This document shows, one piece after another, positions 2,471-44,500 of a stretch of DNA of 46,855 nucleotides (positions within the stretch are counted from its first letter, which is position 1; every line of letters begins with the position of its first letter). The stretch is taken from NCBI GenBank assembly GCA_015063485.1, contig SVUA01000012.1:1-46855 (forward strand). The letters run 5' to 3'. The translations under genes were made by a program, and so were the position numbers. The notes beneath the pieces were generated by a model that did not search any database, was not told the origin of the DNA, and worked only from the letters and a program-made list of their open reading frames with translations. The DNA is from Oscillospiraceae bacterium (GTDB lineage: Bacteria; Bacillota; Clostridia; Oscillospirales; CAG-272).

Positions 2471-2547
2471 GTTAAAAAACCTTTCTTTTTTTAATAAAGT
2501 TTTATCTTTTTTTTAGAAAATTGCGCTTCTCAAAACTTACAACGTAA

Positions 2548-2576
2548 ATTATATCACATTTATTATTTGTTTTCAA
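2548..2576 (-). promoter_or_regulatory. SigA-type promoter for mscS
   Basis: On the minus strand: -35 TTGAAA at 2576-2571, a 17-base spacer, and a perfect -10 TATAAT at 2553-2548. The predicted start is near 2541, giving a leader of about 70 bases before mscS. Confidence 0.75.
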
Positions 2577-2590
2577 TATTTTTTTGATTT

Positions 2591-3283
2591 TTATGATTTA
2601 CCTTCAAGTAATTTTTTTATTATAGCTGTCGACTGCGCGGCGGCTTTGCGTACCATTTCGGGATATTCAATATCCGCCTCGCCTGACGCATTGTCTGAAA
2701 TGGCGCGTATTATCGCGAAGTCCACGCCGTTTACATAGCAGACGTGACCGATAGCCGCGCCCTCCATTTCACAAGCGATAGCGTCAAAGCTTGATTTAAT
2801 AAAATTCTTTCTTTTCTTGTTGTTGATAAATTGGTCGCCCGACGCGATAACGCCCTTAACACATTTTGCTCCTATTGACTCCGCTGCCGCCGCAATTTCG
2901 TCAGAAAGCGAGGGGCTTGCGGGTATCTTTACGATATTTATTCCCGATATAAGTCCTACGGGGTCTCCAAGCGGAGAGGTGTCCATATCGTGCTGAACGA
3001 CCTCTGTTGCAACGGCGATATCAAGTATTCCGAGCTTGTCGGAAAGCGTTCCCGCAACTCCCGTATTTATTATTTTGTCCACTCCGAAACGAATTATCAT
3101 AGTTTGCGCGCAAATTGCGGCAAAGACCTTGCCTATTCCGCACTGCGCTACGACAACATCCTTGCCGTAAAGCTTACCGCTTACGAATTCTATTCCGCTC
3201 ACTGTTTCGCTGACCGCATCCTTTACCTGCTCTTTAAGCGCATCGGTCTCAACGCTCATAGCTCCGATTATTCCTATCTTCAT
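2591..3283 (-). CDS. mtnN: 5'-methylthioadenosine/S-adenosylhomocysteine nucleosidase
   Basis: A 230-residue MTAN (Pfs) enzyme. It hydrolyses MTA and SAH to adenine plus the thioribose product, clearing by-products of SAM use. It starts with MKIGIIGAMSVETDALKEQ, the nucleoside-phosphorylase-family N terminus. It contains the family motif EMEGAAIGHVCY and the catalytic aspartate region RAISDNA. Length and motif order match E. coli MtnN (232 residues). The start has AGAGG at good distance. It lies 17 bases downstream of the ABC-F gene in the same direction, so it is very likely co-transcribed with it and with the S24 repressor gene. Confidence 0.95.
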   Translation of the reverse strand: MKIGIIGAMSVETDALKEQVKDAVSETVSGIEFVSGKLYGKDVVVAQCGIGKVFAAICAQTMIIRFGVDKIINTGVAGTLSDKLGILDIAVATEVVQHDMDTSPLGDPVGLISGINIVKIPASPSLSDEIAAAAESIGAKCVKGVIASGDQFINNKKRKNFIKSSFDAIACEMEGAAIGHVCYVNGVDFAIIRAISDNASGEADIEYPEMVRKAAAQSTAIIKKLLEGKS

Positions 3284-37715: not shown

Positions 37716-39716
37716 ATGGCAACGAATAAAGAAACGCCAAAGCAATATAACGATCAAAGTATAAAGGCGCTCAAGGGCGCGGACAGAGTGCGTAAGCGCC
37801 CGGGAGTTATTTTCGGCTCGGACGGTCTTGAGGGCTGCGAACACTCGTTTTTCGAGATACTTTCAAACTCTGTTGACGAGGCAAGAGAGGGACACGGGCG
37901 AGAGATAAAGGTCACGGCGTATAACGACTGCTCCATACGTGTCGACGACCACGGACGCGGAGTTCCGCTCGGATATAATGAAGCCGAGGGTCGCTGGAAC
38001 TGGGATCTTATATACTGTGAGCTTTACGCGGGCGGTAAATACGACAATAACGACGGAGACTCGGCGTATGAGTTCTCGCTCGGTCTTAACGGACTTGGTG
38101 CGTGCGCTACGCAGTACAGCTCCGAGTTTATGGACGTTTATTCCTATGACGGAACGAACGAATATAAGATAAGCTTTAAGAAGGGAGAGCCTGTTACCGA
38201 GCTTTTGACGCGTCCTCTCGAGAAGAACGAGAGACGTACGGGCACGGTCATTTATTGGCGACCCGACCTTGAGGTGTTTACCGACATACGTATTCCGTAT
38301 ACTTTCTTTGAGGAGACCATGCGCCGTCAGTCAGTGGTTAACGCAGGTATCTCTTTTAAGCTTTCCTTGCAGGATATGTCGGGAAAATTCACCGAGCAGG
38401 AATTTCTCTACGCTAACGGAATTTCGGACTATATAGCCGAGCTTGCCGCGCCGTCTCCAATGACTCAGCCTGTGCTTTGGCACATGGAGGCGCAGGGTCG
38501 TGACCGCGAGGACAAGGATATGTATAAGCTTAAGGCTGATTTTTCCTTCTGTGTCTCAAACACCTACAACAAGCTTGAGTATTATCATAACTCAAGCTAT
38601 CTTGAGTACGGCGGAGCGCCCGACAAAGCCGTTAAGGCGGCGTTCGTTTACGCGCTTGATAAGTATATAAGAAACGTGGGAAAATACACGAAGAACGAAA
38701 GCAAGATAACCTTTGTGGACGTTTCGGACTGCCTTATTTTCGTGTCTAACAGCTTTTCGACTCTGACCTCATACGAAAACCAGACCAAGAAATCTATCAC
38801 CAATAGCTTTATCCAAGAGGCTATGACCGATTTTCTCAAGCAGAATCTTGAGATATACTTTATCGAGAATCCCACCGCGGCAGAGCTTTTTGCGAATCAG
38901 GTACTTATCAACAAGAGAAGCCGTGAGCGCGCCGAGGGCGAGAGACTTAACATCAAGAAGAAGCTGACACAGACCATCGACATGGCGAACAGCGTTGAAA
39001 AGTTCGTCAACTGCCGTTCAAAAGACCCCGACAAGCGCGAGCTTTATATCGTTGAGGGAGACTCCGCTCTGACTTCGTGTAAGCTTGGACGCGACGCCGA
39101 ATTTCAGGCGATAATCCCCGTTCGAGGAAAAACGCTCAACTGTATGAAGAGCACCTACGAAAAGATATTCAAGAGCGACATTATCACCGACCTTCTCCGA
39201 GTTATCGGCTGCGGAGTAGAGATAACGGGCAAGGTCAAGACCGACCTTGCGGCGTTCAATATCAATTCGTTGCGTTGGTCGAAGATAATAATTTGCACCG
39301 ATGCCGACGAGGACGGATTCCAGATACGTACGCTTTTGCTCACGCTCTTTTACCGTCTGCTTCCCACATTGCTAAAGGAGGGAAAGGTCTTTATCGCGGA
39401 ATCTCCTCTGTTTGAGATAAGTGTAAAGGACGACACGTATTTTGCATATAACGAATTTGAAAAGGCAGATATTTTAAAGAAGCTTGAGGGACAGAAATAC
39501 AGTATTCAGCGTTCAAAGGGACTTGGTGAGAACCAGCCCGATATGATGTGGCAGACGACGATGAATCCCGCAACGCGCCGTCTTATTTCGGTAACTCCCA
39601 CAGATGCGCAAAAGACCGAGGAGATGTTTGACACTCTGCTTGGAGACAATCTGCCCGCGCGTAAGGAATTTATCGCGCTTCACGGAAGCGAATATATGAA
39701 GGACGCGGATATTTAA
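37716..39716 (+). CDS. GyrB/ParE-like type IIA topoisomerase B subunit (paralogue, no A partner here)
   Basis: A 666-residue ATPase/toprim subunit. The GHKL domain has Glu47 and Asn51 in FFEILSNSVDEA, DDHGRGVP (77-84) and GLNGLGA (123-129). The transducer has QTK (356-358). The toprim domain has VEGDS (446-450) with Glu447, PVRGKTLN, and TDADEDG (528-534); the KGLGENQP and MWQTTMNP motifs follow. All catalytic residues are kept, so it should be active. It diverges from housekeeping GyrB in several loops (DSALTSCK for DSAGGSAK). Related Clostridial paralogues are usually followed by a GyrA-like gene; here a sigma factor follows instead. The partner, if any, is elsewhere. Confidence 0.9.
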   Translation: MATNKETPKQYNDQSIKALKGADRVRKRPGVIFGSDGLEGCEHSFFEILSNSVDEAREGHGREIKVTAYNDCSIRVDDHGRGVPLGYNEAEGRWNWDLIYCELYAGGKYDNNDGDSAYEFSLGLNGLGACATQYSSEFMDVYSYDGTNEYKISFKKGEPVTELLTRPLEKNERRTGTVIYWRPDLEVFTDIRIPYTFFEETMRRQSVVNAGISFKLSLQDMSGKFTEQEFLYANGISDYIAELAAPSPMTQPVLWHMEAQGRDREDKDMYKLKADFSFCVSNTYNKLEYYHNSSYLEYGGAPDKAVKAAFVYALDKYIRNVGKYTKNESKITFVDVSDCLIFVSNSFSTLTSYENQTKKSITNSFIQEAMTDFLKQNLEIYFIENPTAAELFANQVLINKRSRERAEGERLNIKKKLTQTIDMANSVEKFVNCRSKDPDKRELYIVEGDSALTSCKLGRDAEFQAIIPVRGKTLNCMKSTYEKIFKSDIITDLLRVIGCGVEITGKVKTDLAAFNINSLRWSKIIICTDADEDGFQIRTLLLTLFYRLLPTLLKEGKVFIAESPLFEISVKDDTYFAYNEFEKADILKKLEGQKYSIQRSKGLGENQPDMMWQTTMNPATRRLISVTPTDAQKTEEMFDTLLGDNLPARKEFIALHGSEYMKDADI

Positions 39717-39756
39717 CGGCAAAAGTTTTTTACGTCCGTGAAAGGAGGATCTTCTC

Positions 39757-40482
39757 ATGTTTAATAAAAATGAAAAGATAAGAGAAAGACTCGAAAAAAT
39801 AGAAGAAGCGGTAAACGACGATACCGCTATGCATGAGCTTACCGAACATTACCGTCCGCTTATTTTGAGAACGGCTTGTTCTGTGTGCGGACGCTTTATA
39901 ACCGTGCATGACGACGAATACGCCATAGCGCTTGAAGCCTTTTGCGATGCTATTAGACGTTATAACGGTCAAGCATCTCCCGAGACTTACGCAAAGGTCG
40001 TTATACGCAATCGCTTGATAGACCATATGAGAGCAAGCAAGCCGTCTGCCATATCGCTTGATGCCGAGATGGAGACAGGCTTTGAGCCGTCGGACGAGAT
40101 CGACTCGGAGCGACAGGCTCTCGCGGAGGCTACGCGTGCCGAGATAGCGGAGCTATCGGCTATTTTACAGGAATACGGGATATCCTTTACAGAGCTTCCG
40201 TCTGTGTCGCCAAAGCACGAAAAGACGAGACACGAATGTGGAAGAGTCGTTCGTTTCCTTTGCGATTCGCCAAAGCTCTGCACGGAAATGAGAAGAAAAA
40301 AGGCTCTTCCGATCAAAGAAATATGCCAAAATTGCATCATACCCCGAAAAACAGTTGAGAGACATCGTAAATATATTGTGACGGCTACGGAAGTGTGTAT
40401 TGGTTGCTTCCCGATAATTTCGGAGTATTTAAAAAAATACCTTCCGCCAAGATCGGCGTTGTGCGCCGATGTGCCCGTGTAA
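39757..40482 (+). CDS. SigI-like sigma factor, cysteine-rich
   Basis: A 241-residue protein matching the sigma-I group. Residues 27-95 are a sigma region 2 (LTEHYRPLILRTACSVCGRF, then YAIALEAFCDAIRRYN and VVIRNRLIDHMR). Residues 130-230 are the SigI-specific C domain: AILQEYGISFTELPSVSPKH, KALPIKEI, then RKTVERHRKYIVTAT. SigI responds to heat or extracellular polysaccharides through RsgI in Bacillus and Clostridium. Unusually it has 11 cysteines, with CxxC pairs at 41/44, 190/193 and 214/217. AAAGGAGG lies 7-8 bases before the ATG. The RsgI-like gene follows by 21 bases, a typical sigI-rsgI order. Confidence 0.82.
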   Translation: MFNKNEKIRERLEKIEEAVNDDTAMHELTEHYRPLILRTACSVCGRFITVHDDEYAIALEAFCDAIRRYNGQASPETYAKVVIRNRLIDHMRASKPSAISLDAEMETGFEPSDEIDSERQALAEATRAEIAELSAILQEYGISFTELPSVSPKHEKTRHECGRVVRFLCDSPKLCTEMRRKKALPIKEICQNCIIPRKTVERHRKYIVTATEVCIGCFPIISEYLKKYLPPRSALCADVPV

Positions 40483-40503
40483 AAACGAAAGGAGAGATTT
40501 AAC

Positions 40504-40749
40504 ATGATGAATGCAGTTGTTCTGGAGCTTCGCGACGATAAGCGCGCCGTTGCTCTCGATGCAAACGGCAGATTTCGGCTTATCGCTAACGATAATTATC
40601 GAATCGGTCAGACCGTTCAAGTCAGAAAGATATCTCGTTTCGTGCGCCCGAGCGATTATAAAAAAATGAATGCCACTCTTGTCGGCGTTGGCGTGGTCAC
40701 TATCGCATTGAGTATCGTCGCTATTATCCATTCTTCTAATAAGCATTAA
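40504..40749 (+). CDS. Minimal RsgI-like anti-sigma protein (N domain plus one TM only)
   Basis: An 81-residue protein. Residues 1-50 (AVVLELRDDKRAVALDANGR, then RLIANDNYRIGQTVQV) resemble the RsgI N-terminal cytoplasmic anti-sigma domain. Residues about 55-75 are one membrane segment (ATLVGVGVVTIALSIVAII), and only HSSNKH remains on the far side. Known RsgI proteins continue with a large extracytoplasmic part that holds the sensing and cleavage region; it is absent and no continuation exists in any frame downstream. AAAGGAG precedes the start. The next 230 bases hold hairpins and an inverted-repeat element, so truncation by rearrangement is possible. Confidence 0.75.
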   Translation: MMNAVVLELRDDKRAVALDANGRFRLIANDNYRIGQTVQVRKISRFVRPSDYKKMNATLVGVGVVTIALSIVAIIHSSNKH

Positions 40750-40759
40750 GGGGACGCGT

Positions 40760-40788
40760 TCGACCCTTTCCCCGCAAGAAAGGGTCGA
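40760..40788. repeat. Hairpin after the RsgI-like gene
   Basis: Perfect 11-bp arms (TCGACCCTTTC and GAAAGGGTCGA) around CCCGCAA. No U run follows on the plus strand. It may be a weak terminator or a dispersed repeat. Confidence 0.6.
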
Positions 40789-40852
40789 GCCCCAAAGAAC
40801 CTCAATAAAAGGATTTTATATGTAGCCAATTTGTTTTGATTTGATTGAATGA

Positions 40853-40983
40853 AACGGACAGTCGAGGACGCCTGTCCCTACAAGGTATGGATAGAATCGT
40901 TGGGATATCCCTCGCCGTAAGGCGACGTAAAACGATTCATTTTCGTTTAACTCTGTAGGGACAGGCGTCCTCGACTGTCCGTT
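40853..40983. mobile_element. 131-bp element with perfect 30-bp terminal inverted repeats (MITE-like)
   Basis: The 30 bases at 40853-40882 are the exact reverse complement of 40954-40983 (outer ends AACGGACAGTCGAGGACGCC). Inside, GAATCGTT (40894-40901) pairs with AACGATTC (40931-40938) and TCGCC (40912-40916) with GGCGA (40921-40925), so the whole element folds into nested stems. It encodes nothing. No clear target-site duplication is seen. It fits a MITE or a structured interspersed repeat. 40984-41079 is plain intergenic DNA in which I see nothing. Confidence 0.7.
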
Positions 40984-41079
40984 CTTTATCAACATGTAAC
41001 TATAAAAAAGCAATATCTTTTTATATAAAACCTTTTAGTGAGATTCTTTGAGAGTTCTCGAACGCATCCTATCGTCCCC

Positions 41080-41487
41080 TTATCTTCCAACATTAAAGCG
41101 GTTTTTACAGCGAGGGCATATAACGGTATGTTTGCCTTTTGCTTTAGGGAGGCGGAGGACCGCTTTACAGTGGGGGCATTTTTTATAGACGTGTGTTTTT
41201 CTGTCGCGGAACTTATTACGGCGGAGCTTAAAGAATCCGCAGAACTTATCGTTTTCGCGTCTGCGCTTCTGTATATTTCGCGAGAACATACGGAAGAATA
41301 TAACGTAGATAAGCGTAATTGAAATTGCGAAATAGGCAAAGCTGAACCATACGGAATCAATAAACAGAGAAAGTACGGTAGAAACGACAACAACTACTGT
41401 GTAAATTATAATGAGTACTTTATTCAGTGTATCAGAGCCATATCTGCCGTACATAAAACGATACAATTTATTTTTAAATTTACCCAT
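41080..41487 (-). CDS. Two-TM membrane protein with C-terminal zinc ribbon
   Basis: A 135-residue protein with hydrophobic segments at about 23-42 (VLIIIYTVVVVVSTVLSLF) and 47-66, a basic stretch, and a C-terminal zinc ribbon with CPHC and CPRC knuckles separated by 17 residues. Proteins of this kind are frequent in Clostridia; none known to me has an assigned role. It lies 58 bases downstream of the ABC transporter in the same direction, beyond a stem-loop, so it may share that transcript. Confidence 0.8.
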   Translation of the reverse strand: MGKFKNKLYRFMYGRYGSDTLNKVLIIIYTVVVVVSTVLSLFIDSVWFSFAYFAISITLIYVIFFRMFSRNIQKRRRENDKFCGFFKLRRNKFRDRKTHVYKKCPHCKAVLRLPKAKGKHTVICPRCKNRFNVGR

Positions 41488-41501
41488 TTAAACCTTTTTC
41501 T

Positions 41502-41536
41502 ATCGGGACTGTCGCATTTTGAACGACAGTCCCGAT
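41502..41536. terminator. Stem-loop between the ABC transporter and the zinc-ribbon gene
   Basis: Perfect 13-bp arms (ATCGGGACTGTCG and complement) around a 9-base loop. The T run lies on the plus-strand 3' side, so for the minus-strand transcript it is only a partial terminator; it may reduce expression of the downstream gene. Confidence 0.6.
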
Positions 41537-41545
41537 TTTTAATAA

Positions 41546-44500
41546 TTATTCTGTTCTGAGCGCTTCAACGGGGTCTTTTCTTGATGCCTTCTTCGCGGGG
41601 ATAAGACCTGCGATAATGGTAAGACCCATGCTTATTGCAACGAGGATCAAAGCCGCTACGGGAGGAAGAACCGCGTTGATGTTCTCAAATCCCGTAAGCG
41701 CTTGGATTATAGCATTAACGGGGAAGCAGAGAAGTACTGTGGTGAGTATACCCAAGATACCCGCGGCAAGACCGATAATGAATGTCTCTGCGTTGAACAC
41801 GCGCGAGATATCCTTCTTCGATGCTCCGATAGCTCGGAGTATTCCTATCTCCTTTATTCTTTCGAGAACCGAGATATTGGTAATGATTCCTATCATTATA
41901 GAGGAAACGACGAGCGAGATGGATACGAACGCTATAAGAACGTACGAGATAACATCGATAATTATAGAAACCGAGGACATCATGATACCGATAAGGTCGG
42001 TGTATTCTATCTCATCTTCGTCTTCGACCGTGCCGTTGTAGTCCGAGATAAATTGCTCTATCTGCTCCTTGGAGGCAAAGTCCTTGGCATAGAAGTTTAT
42101 AGACATGGGGGAAGCCTGCTCAGCATCGCCAAGTTTTTTGAGAGTGGATTTAAGCGTTGCATCGGTTTCGGGAGCCATCATGGTCAAAAGATTAATTATA
42201 TCTTCTGTGGTCATGTCGATTTCGGAAGCCTTATCGCTGGCTTCTTCTTGACTTGCCAATGATTGTATCCACATTACACAGAATTCTTTGGAAAGAGAGA
42301 TGTTTCCAAGCATAGCTTCAAGCGTGGGATAAAATTCTGATACGTTTGGCGAATACTGCGCGAGAATGCCTATCAGCATACCGTATTGCTGCTGATCCTG
42401 TGCTATGCTAGGTAGACAGAATTCAAAATCCTCTCTTGAATCTATTGCGAGAATTCCGCTCTGCGAAAGTGTCTGGTGTACGATCATTTTTGCTGTCATG
42501 GGAATCGGAACACCTGGAATTGTGATGGGGGAATCACTCAATTTGTCGTACATGGCAAGCGCAAGAGTTTTTTTGTCCGCGTCGTTGAGCAGAGTAGAGT
42601 ATGTGAAAAACTTTTCGAGCTTTTGGCTCATCTGCTTGCCTTCTTCAAGTTCGTTGCTTGCCGTCTTGAAATCTTCTATAAGCATACCGCCCATCATAGA
42701 TGATATTTGGCTCATGGTATTTGCGTCAAATGCCGCAAACAACTCATGTACGTTATCAACGGTGTATTTTTTGTTTTCAAGCTCGTGGGGAAGACCTGTT
42801 GTAATGTTTATGGTGGGGTTTGCCTTTTGTTGCTTGAGTACCTCGCTATTGGCGTTCATTTCGAGTATAGTGTTAGTAAGCTTTTTGGTATATGCAATAG
42901 GACTCGATATAGAGGTTGCCGTAGCGTCAACGCGAGGACGGATAATTCCCGATATCTTAAGCTTCATTCCGTGTTCGGTCACAAAGCTTTCTTCATCGTA
43001 ATTGGTTTTATCTTCGCGAACGTCCTTCCAAGGATAATAGCTGTTTCCATCGTCTCCTATATACTGTTCTGCGTTAGTATCTTTTACAAAGAAATCCGAG
43101 GTATTTACAAGATAAAACTCGGAATTAAGGAAATAATCAAAATCGAACGGCTCGATAGGTTCGTCCTTGTATTCCTTGTCGGTCATAAGGGTCTTCATTA
43201 TATCTTCAAGATTGCCTTGGTCGAGTATACCGAGCATATAAAGCGTCATACGGCTTATCTGATTGTTCTTGTTTACGACAAGCACGACTTCATTTGCTTC
43301 CTTGGGCCATGCACCCGCAACGACGTCGTATTGTTGGTCAAGAAGCGCCTGATTGTCTATCATTTCGGTCATGACGTCCATCGATCCCGACGCGCCCGCA
43401 AGCTCGCTCAGACCCGCGAAGCTGTCGCCCATATTGTCGAGCATCGAACCGATACCGAGCTTTGTTACTCTGTTGTAATCCTTGCCGTCCTTGTCCTTGT
43501 CGGGAACGATATTATAAACCTGAAGATTTAAGTCGTAGGTGTACTGGATATCGTTCACGTAAGGCTTGAGCTTGTCAAAATTCGTGTCGATATGAGTCTT
43601 GAACTTTTCAAGATTGTTGGTCGTTGTGGACATCATGGCGTTTACCATCTTGCCCATTGAATCGTCAACGTAGATCTTGTTAGGGTCTCTTTCTGTGTTT
43701 GCGTCTTCTTCGACCTCTGTCATAGCGGTCATCATGGCGTTAAGATCGCTCGTTTCCTTCATAATAGAGAGGGGATATGTCGAAAGCGTATCCTCCTGAA
43801 CCTGATCGATAAAGAGCTGTATGCCGTTTGAAAGAGCGAGTATGAGAGCAATACCGATAATACCTATACTTCCCGCAAAGGAGGTCATTATTGTTCTTCC
43901 TTTTTTGGTAAGCAGGTTTTTAAAGGAGAGCGATACAGCCGTTCCAAAGGACATCGATGCCTTTTTTTCTTCTGCTTTTTTTGCTTTCTTGTCCTTTTTG
44001 CTTTGAATTATCGCTTGTGTATCCTTTTCTACGAGTTGCGCATATTCCTCATCGAGAACAGGATTTGAGTCGCCTATTACCAAGCCGTCCTGAAGCTTTA
44101 CTATTCTCGTGGAATACTGCTCGGCAAGCTCGGGGTTATGAGTTACCATGATAACGAGACGATCCTCTGCGACCTCTTTGAGAAGGTCCATTATCTGAAC
44201 GCTCGTATGTGTATCAAGCGCGCCCGTAGGCTCGTCGGCAAGAAGAATATCGGGGTCGTTAACGAGAGCTCTCGCGATAGCGACTCTCTGCATCTGTCCG
44301 CCCGACATCTGATTGGGCTTTTTGTGAAGCTGGTCGCCAAGACCGACGTTTTGGAGAGCCTTTACAGCCTTTGCGCGTCTCTCCGCTTTTGAAACGCCCG
44401 AGAGAGTGAGCGCAAGCTCGACGTTTGCGAGAACGGTCTGGTGAGGTATCAAGTTATAGCTTTGGAAAACGAAGCCTATCGAGTGGTTTCTATACGTATC

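Follow-up and report, generated by a model that had tools for sequence, protein, structure and literature searches.

An 81-residue RsgI-type anti-sigma protein, encoded directly behind the gene of a SigI-type sigma factor, comprises a cytoplasmic domain and one membrane helix and ends six residues beyond the membrane. The pair lies at 39757..40749 of the window—by which we mean the whole 46,855-nucleotide stretch analyzed here, contig SVUA01000012.1 of an Oscillospiraceae bacterium—and the coordinates, lengths, and layout given in the original prediction are borne out, as is its description of the short protein as cytoplasmic anti-sigma domain, one membrane segment, and six further residues. 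That prediction had also proposed a minimal, differently triggered class of SigI systems. This part is so far not supported: the genes of the four closest relatives run on into an ordinary RsgI ectodomain, and a survey for short RsgIs next to sigI gave no second case in 122 sigI loci. The ectodomain was very probably lost in this lineage. Our best explanation as a whole—ectodomain lost, remaining stump removed without any signal, SigI active by default—falls just short of what we would call an even chance.

The SigI–RsgI pair and its parts

The locus contains the following features, given with the evidence for each.

37716..39716, + strand: gyrB/parE-like type II topoisomerase B subunit gene, ending 40 nt ahead of sigI (context)
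39757..40482, + strand: sigI-type sigma factor gene, 241 aa, frame unbroken (family models, profile, tree)
40504..40749, + strand: rsgI-type anti-sigma gene without ectodomain, 81 aa (sequence, Pfam, RsgI profile, alignment)
40504..40644, + strand: cytoplasmic RsgI N-terminal, predicted SigI-binding domain, residues ~1–47 (profile match)
40672..40728, + strand: single membrane helix, residues ~57–75, without AA dipeptide (hydropathy only)
40729..40749, + strand: six residues outside the membrane (HSSNKH), then TAA stop (sequence)
40750..40983, + strand: dispersed repeat copy, directly adjoining the stop codon

Alignment and tree place the 241-residue protein among SigIs. Ten SigI models of NCBIfam match it at E 5e-53 to 1.5e-20, all ten under their curated cut-offs—the top match covers residues 6–227 with 180 bits against a cut-off of 260—and it scores above the cut-offs of the general sigma70-ECF model of NCBIfam (54.1 versus 42.9 bits) and of Pfam Sigma70_r2 (36.2 versus 24 bits). 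A SigI profile containing the window protein matches the solved structures of SigI6 (8i24) and SigI1 (8i23) at E 2.1e-40 and 1.6e-39. A Shine-Dalgarno-like GGAGG precedes sigI and AAGGAG the rsgI-type gene, which follows directly after a gap of 21 nt.

Pfam RsgI_N matches the 81-residue protein over residues 1–40 at E 0.0053; its 17 bits fall short of the gathering score, 25, and none of the NCBIfam RsgI models matches the protein. Despite this sub-cut-off score it can be assigned to the RsgI type, because an independent RsgI profile—built from 111 N-termini of RsgIs adjoining sigI elsewhere, with the window protein left out—finds it at E 1.3e-14 for N-terminus plus helix and at 6.7e-15 for the cytoplasmic part. 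It ranks first among the 504 stop-to-stop ORFs of the window, the runner-up reaching E 0.074 and 0.055, respectively. In an alignment of 38 sequences that includes the window protein (A3), both invariant residues, G22 and G35, are retained, and with the profile made from it, RsgI1 of PDB 6ivs/6ivu comes up at E 5.3e-5. The membership in the RsgI_N family on which the original prediction rested is hence upheld, by the independent profile.

The cytoplasmic domain retains six of the seven positions conserved in 80% of relatives (fewer are kept in 15 of 111), and its mean identity to 107 outgroup RsgIs is 0.315, versus 0.252–0.301 in the four closest relatives. Compared with one of these (L010), the identity, 0.267, is unusually low given how far apart the SigIs are, with 2.7% of comparable pairs lower; compared with the other three (L011, L055, and L056) it is ordinary, with 26–41% lower. 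By the outgroup comparison the domain shows no sign of extra decay. Codon usage gives weak backing to the rsgI frame, which scores 0.379 bits per codon against −0.328 and −0.677 for the other plus-strand frames, one antisense frame reaching 0.398. Judged from their sequences, both proteins look like a working or only recently broken pair.

Nearest relatives, rarity, and the repeat behind the stop codon

In a tree of 48 SigI sequences, the window protein groups with those of L010, L011, L055, and L056 at 100/99 support; SigI identity to these four is 49–51%. They come from metagenome-assembled genomes labelled Clostridia or Oscillospiraceae (L010 and L011 are the same loci as L053 and L054; by title, L053 stems from deer colon and L055 from caecum). 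All four share with the window the gene order, a gap of tens of nucleotides, and the closest SigI, whereas they differ by a full-length RsgI and by a promoter-like box of their own ahead of sigI. Their RsgIs of 376–428 aa carry an NP-containing periplasmic domain with the motif NPSIEYR, and this domain, with its motif VSVDVNPSIEYR, starts where the 81-residue protein ends. The NP motif is not universal, as several surveyed RsgIs lack it near that position. Since the window SigI groups with four sisters that all have full RsgIs, the short RsgI is the derived form.

The predicted absence of a sensor also stands: six residues lie outside the membrane, and tblastn with the RsgIs of three relatives against 40401–42200 found no ectodomain remnant, recovering the N-terminal domain at E 1.5e-4 to 0.002 and all else at E 0.056 or weaker.

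Within the same family as the window, the RsgI of L017 (2145–2624, minus-strand numbering) continues from its helix into a stretch without NP domain, which resembles the C-terminal part of the L019 and L020 RsgIs and runs off the contig.

How rare such helix-only RsgIs are was surveyed in three ways. The 122 sigI loci comprise 13 from the family, 80 from named contigs, and 29 from the order, at least four of them being the same place or sequence twice. By script, the downstream frame is closed in 103 loci and runs off the contig in 19, with a median of 342 aa for the 103 closed frames. A profile recheck of four of these 103 gave a closed long RsgI in L064, a long RsgI running off the contig in L068, and none in L151 and L153. 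This leaves an RsgI domain in 120 of the 122 loci, in 100 closed and 20 open frames, and two loci without; the shortest closed RsgI among the 100 has 193 aa (L114).

Further observations concern individual loci. In L151 and L153, no RsgI domain was detected within ~3.7 kb of sequence each. In the RsgI-type proteins beside sigI in L061 (4709–5281) and L092 (4621–5217), the N-terminal domain is not followed by a clear membrane helix within the ~170–190 residues visible; both run off the contig. L251 encodes a SigI-like protein of 170 aa (2005–2517; SigI profile E 3.4e-9), followed by an RsgI-type protein of 193 aa (2504–3085).

The other two were profile searches of genomes, first of the order and then of class and phylum; these are taxon samples with at most 14–15 candidates per genome scored, such that rare cases may be missed. 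Across 394 order genomes, the A3 profile gave at least 61 matches, of which at least 54 span the domain from its first positions onward; among the 54 full-domain matches listed, the window RsgI has an open frame of 88 codons and the next one of 229. At least 84 matches were obtained in 391 genomes of the class and at least 71 in 398 of the phylum, sets which overlap with that of the order. Besides the window, the matches listed contain frames below 200 codons in three rows for the class and four for the phylum. Six of these seven rows were inspected; the remaining one, G898, is at the edge of its contig. Broken genes account for two of the six: G926 breaks after the NP motif, with no sigI found by profile in the stretch, and in G1359 the sigI frame is incomplete as well. 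Two others (G1048 and G1166) belong to a different protein family, which we take to be RseC/SoxR-reducer-like, and G1139 is a 193-aa RsgI. The last, L246 of the single-contig genome G936 (1853–2125, minus-strand numbering), is a 90-aa RsgI-type protein that resembles the window RsgI in its N-terminal domain, helix, and ~8 subsequent residues. It differs in having no sigI in the 5 kb read, and G936 bears a further RsgI-domain match with a frame of 526 codons.

Hence, neither the 122 sigI loci nor the RsgI-domain matches listed for order, class, and phylum contain a second short RsgI beside an intact sigI. Thirty genomes of the genus gave no second convincing match to the 81-residue protein (seven others at E 3.3e-4 to 0.46), and a scan of genome contigs with this single protein gave no relatives. 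Titles and abstract openings among the literature matches listed for RsgI and truncated anti-sigma factors name no natural RsgI without ectodomain. In the genomes surveyed, few RsgIs end after the helix, and only that of the window was seen to do so beside an intact sigI.

A dispersed repeat begins immediately behind the stop codon, at 40750. Its left part might form a G+C-rich hairpin (by eye), and its right part is palindromic with perfect inverted arms of 30 nt (40853–40882 and 40954–40983). The genome holds 76 matches, counting the copy itself and both orientations of the palindromic half; the repeat spans ~230 nt at full length, the other matches are 71–91% identical, and several copies carry extra GGACGCG-like units ahead of the part that aligns with the window. 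At 13 sites outside the window, an ORF ends at most 30 nt before the motif in nine cases and 22–23 nt into it in three, with no ORF end in one. At 9 of 11 sites inspected by eye (10 of these 13 plus L037; repeat copies span L024–L052), a TAA or TGA stop is immediately followed by G-rich, repeat-like sequence. For seven of ten proteins encoded upstream, the match to a family model stops no more than 11 positions short of the C-terminus—HisIE, CysK, RhaA, FtsZ, and SHMT above the model cut-off, SpoIIE and a glycosyltransferase below it—while one match ends inside its model and two proteins are unmatched. Because copies tend to follow the stops of full-length genes, the repeat seems to mark where genes naturally end; by itself it does not explain the lost ectodomain, and its insertion as the simple cause of the truncation was rejected. 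The locus could have arisen by an internal deletion, with the original stop and the repeat retained.

Rfam gave no matches on 39600–41200. Farther downstream, a 135-aa ORF on the minus strand (41080–41487) has two hydrophobic stretches and the motifs CPHC and CPRC near its end; scanned without its first codon, it has no Pfam match at E 0.001.

Possible readings of the shortened RsgI

The original prediction argued that without a sensor the signal must enter differently. This does not follow, as the site-2 protease is reported to act constitutively on RsiP that lacks its outside part (PMC6686233); if an ectodomain-less anti-sigma protein can behave in this way, the signal may be absent altogether. 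For RsgI6 of C. thermocellum, activation is described as periplasmic autocleavage, followed by an RseP cut in the helix and by ClpXP degradation from the XAA end (PMC12203970). In the window, the stump would still bind SigI at the membrane, and the first activation step—the sensor-answering autocleavage of the periplasmic domain—would be gone. The stump resembles the product of this autocleavage, and a site-2 protease could cut its helix signal-free. In that case SigI would be on by default, and how active it is would depend on how fast the two proteins are made and turned over. We propose this reading because truncations of RsiP behave in the same way: with the extracellular part removed and the helix kept, RsiP undergoes constitutive RasP-dependent degradation, and with RsiP 1–80 the sigma factor is constitutively active, again dependent on RasP (PMC6686233). 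Resting on analogy, such a default-on mechanism is tentatively the likeliest of several. Counting against it are the absence of an RseP above its cut-off and the helix without AA, both taken up below, together with two sequence changes in SigI and the low identity of the RsgI domain to that of L010.

Early decay is an unlikely but serious alternative. It would mean that the sensor was lost recently and that the pair is on its way out, neither protein mattering to the cell. The patchy distribution of sigI is consistent with it: 14 of 295 family genomes match, among them a single genome of the window's genus, the window's own. The gyrB-like gene is matched in 26 of 30 genus genomes, and at none of the 26 other loci does a sigI follow it (88–1497 nt downstream, the three longest ORFs by eye); the pair may have been either acquired or kept in this lineage. 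Expression points the same way. The four sisters carry a TTGACT box 17 nt ahead of a TATAAT-like box upstream of sigI (by eye). The window sigI, 40 nt behind the gyrB-like gene, has no such sigma-70-like site on the plus strand before it in a scan of 39300–41100, which gave two sites in all with 2.5 expected. The SigI-type promoter pattern, which we take to be CCCC-N12-19-CGA/T, has no match within 300 nt ahead of sigI, either in the window or in any of the four sisters. Transcription from upstream probably reads through into the pair.

SigI itself retains 26 of the 29 positions conserved in 90% of relatives, a smaller share being kept in just 5 of 111, and 41 of the 46 positions at 80% conservation, with a smaller share in 28 of 111. 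Residue 75 is a proline, in place of the phenylalanine found in 95% of relatives and in each of the four sisters. Slightly beyond it lies a two-residue gap, which is likewise peculiar to the window in comparison with the sisters; these changes could reduce the activity of SigI. Its codon score of 0.206 is under those of all 17 window genes compared (0.311–0.849). Against decay, both frames are unbroken, the RsgI domain with its six of seven conserved positions is no further from outgroups than that of the sisters, and SigI has nearly the same identity to outgroups as theirs (0.330 versus 0.336–0.340). An acceleration of SigI is not claimed: its end branch is the longest in the tree (1.34, median 0.56), yet the outgroup identities differ by only ~0.01.

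A permanent lock, in which SigI would be held at the membrane by a stump that is never cleared for want of an autocleavage domain, XAA motif, or site-2 protease, such that SigI works only when outnumbering it, appears rather improbable. It draws on the helix, which lacks the AA dipeptide that 103 of 111 relatives have; the AA/XAA motif, which is read by ClpXP, is not strictly defining, as the remaining 8 of 111 lack AA as well. Once cut, a stump without it might escape degradation. The N-terminal domain of RsgI6 with the whole helix is reported to withstand, in vitro, those ClpP proteases that were tried on it (PMC12203970), behavior that a lock requires. The lock reading would also gain from a missing RseP. 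No protein of the genome exceeds the TIGR00054 cut-off (best 35.5 versus 147.55 bits), a model which matches in 14 of 14 control genomes and lies over the cut-off in nine. M50 matches at E <1e-50 are present in 21 of 30 genus genomes, with a piece in one more, whereas the window's genome has none at this threshold and just two other M50 genes. However, these two M50 proteases are present, and the assembly is 87% complete. dxr, which adjoins rseP in three genus loci read (named by eye), gave no match in the window's genome in a search run without positive control. Since this neighbor is unmatched too, the rseP–dxr block may sit in the missing 13%, and an assembly gap is a plausible reason for the absent RseP.

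A new sensing route, the idea of the original prediction, now seems quite improbable; the signal would act inside the membrane, within the cytoplasm, or by way of a partner protein, whose gene would then lie elsewhere. The 90-aa protein L246 provides a second example of domain, helix, and stump, albeit without sigI in 5 kb, and RsgI8 of C. thermocellum, reported not to cleave itself, points to variety within the family and makes other triggers possible in it (PMC12203970). On the other hand, there is no obvious operon partner—the repeat and then a convergent long ORF come next—and a form found once beside sigI does not make a class. Least probable is an assembly artefact at the repeat, for which the many-copy sequence after the stop (up to 52 nt identical to another copy), the 65 contigs, and an estimated contamination of 5.6% might speak; but the eight longest shared exact stretches listed begin at 40749, the last stop base, or later, so that misjoining within the repeat would affect neither the frame nor its stop, and the contig has the genus-typical gyrB-like gene and the genome's own repeat.

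Comparison with known anti-sigma systems

The locus might be a functional two-gene SigI switch uncoupled from outside signals, with the stump as a fixed-rate inhibitor that is self-removing or titrating. We consider this doubtful; were it true, SigI output would follow only expression and membrane proteolysis. As a single case, and probably one of loss, the locus is of modest general importance. Still, an RsgI pared down to the predicted SigI-binding domain and helix represents a natural test of the later activation steps without the first.

Close parallels are RsiP 1–80 and GFP-RsiP 1–72 of B. thuringiensis, which are likewise anti-sigma proteins cut down to cytoplasmic domain and helix. These, however, are laboratory mutants of an ECF anti-sigma factor from another family, and the behavior measured there would have to carry over to the window protein (PMC6686233). 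By family, the counterparts are SigI1–8 and RsgI1–9 of C. thermocellum and the SigI–RsgI pair of B. subtilis, in which SigI is likewise followed by an RsgI with N-terminal domain and one helix. In contrast to these RsgIs, the window protein lacks the periplasmic domain, trans-wall part, and sensor, and its helix is without AA. Self-cleavage is reported to be missing from C. thermocellum RsgI8 as well, but its periplasmic part and C-terminal domain are present as in the others (PMC12203970).
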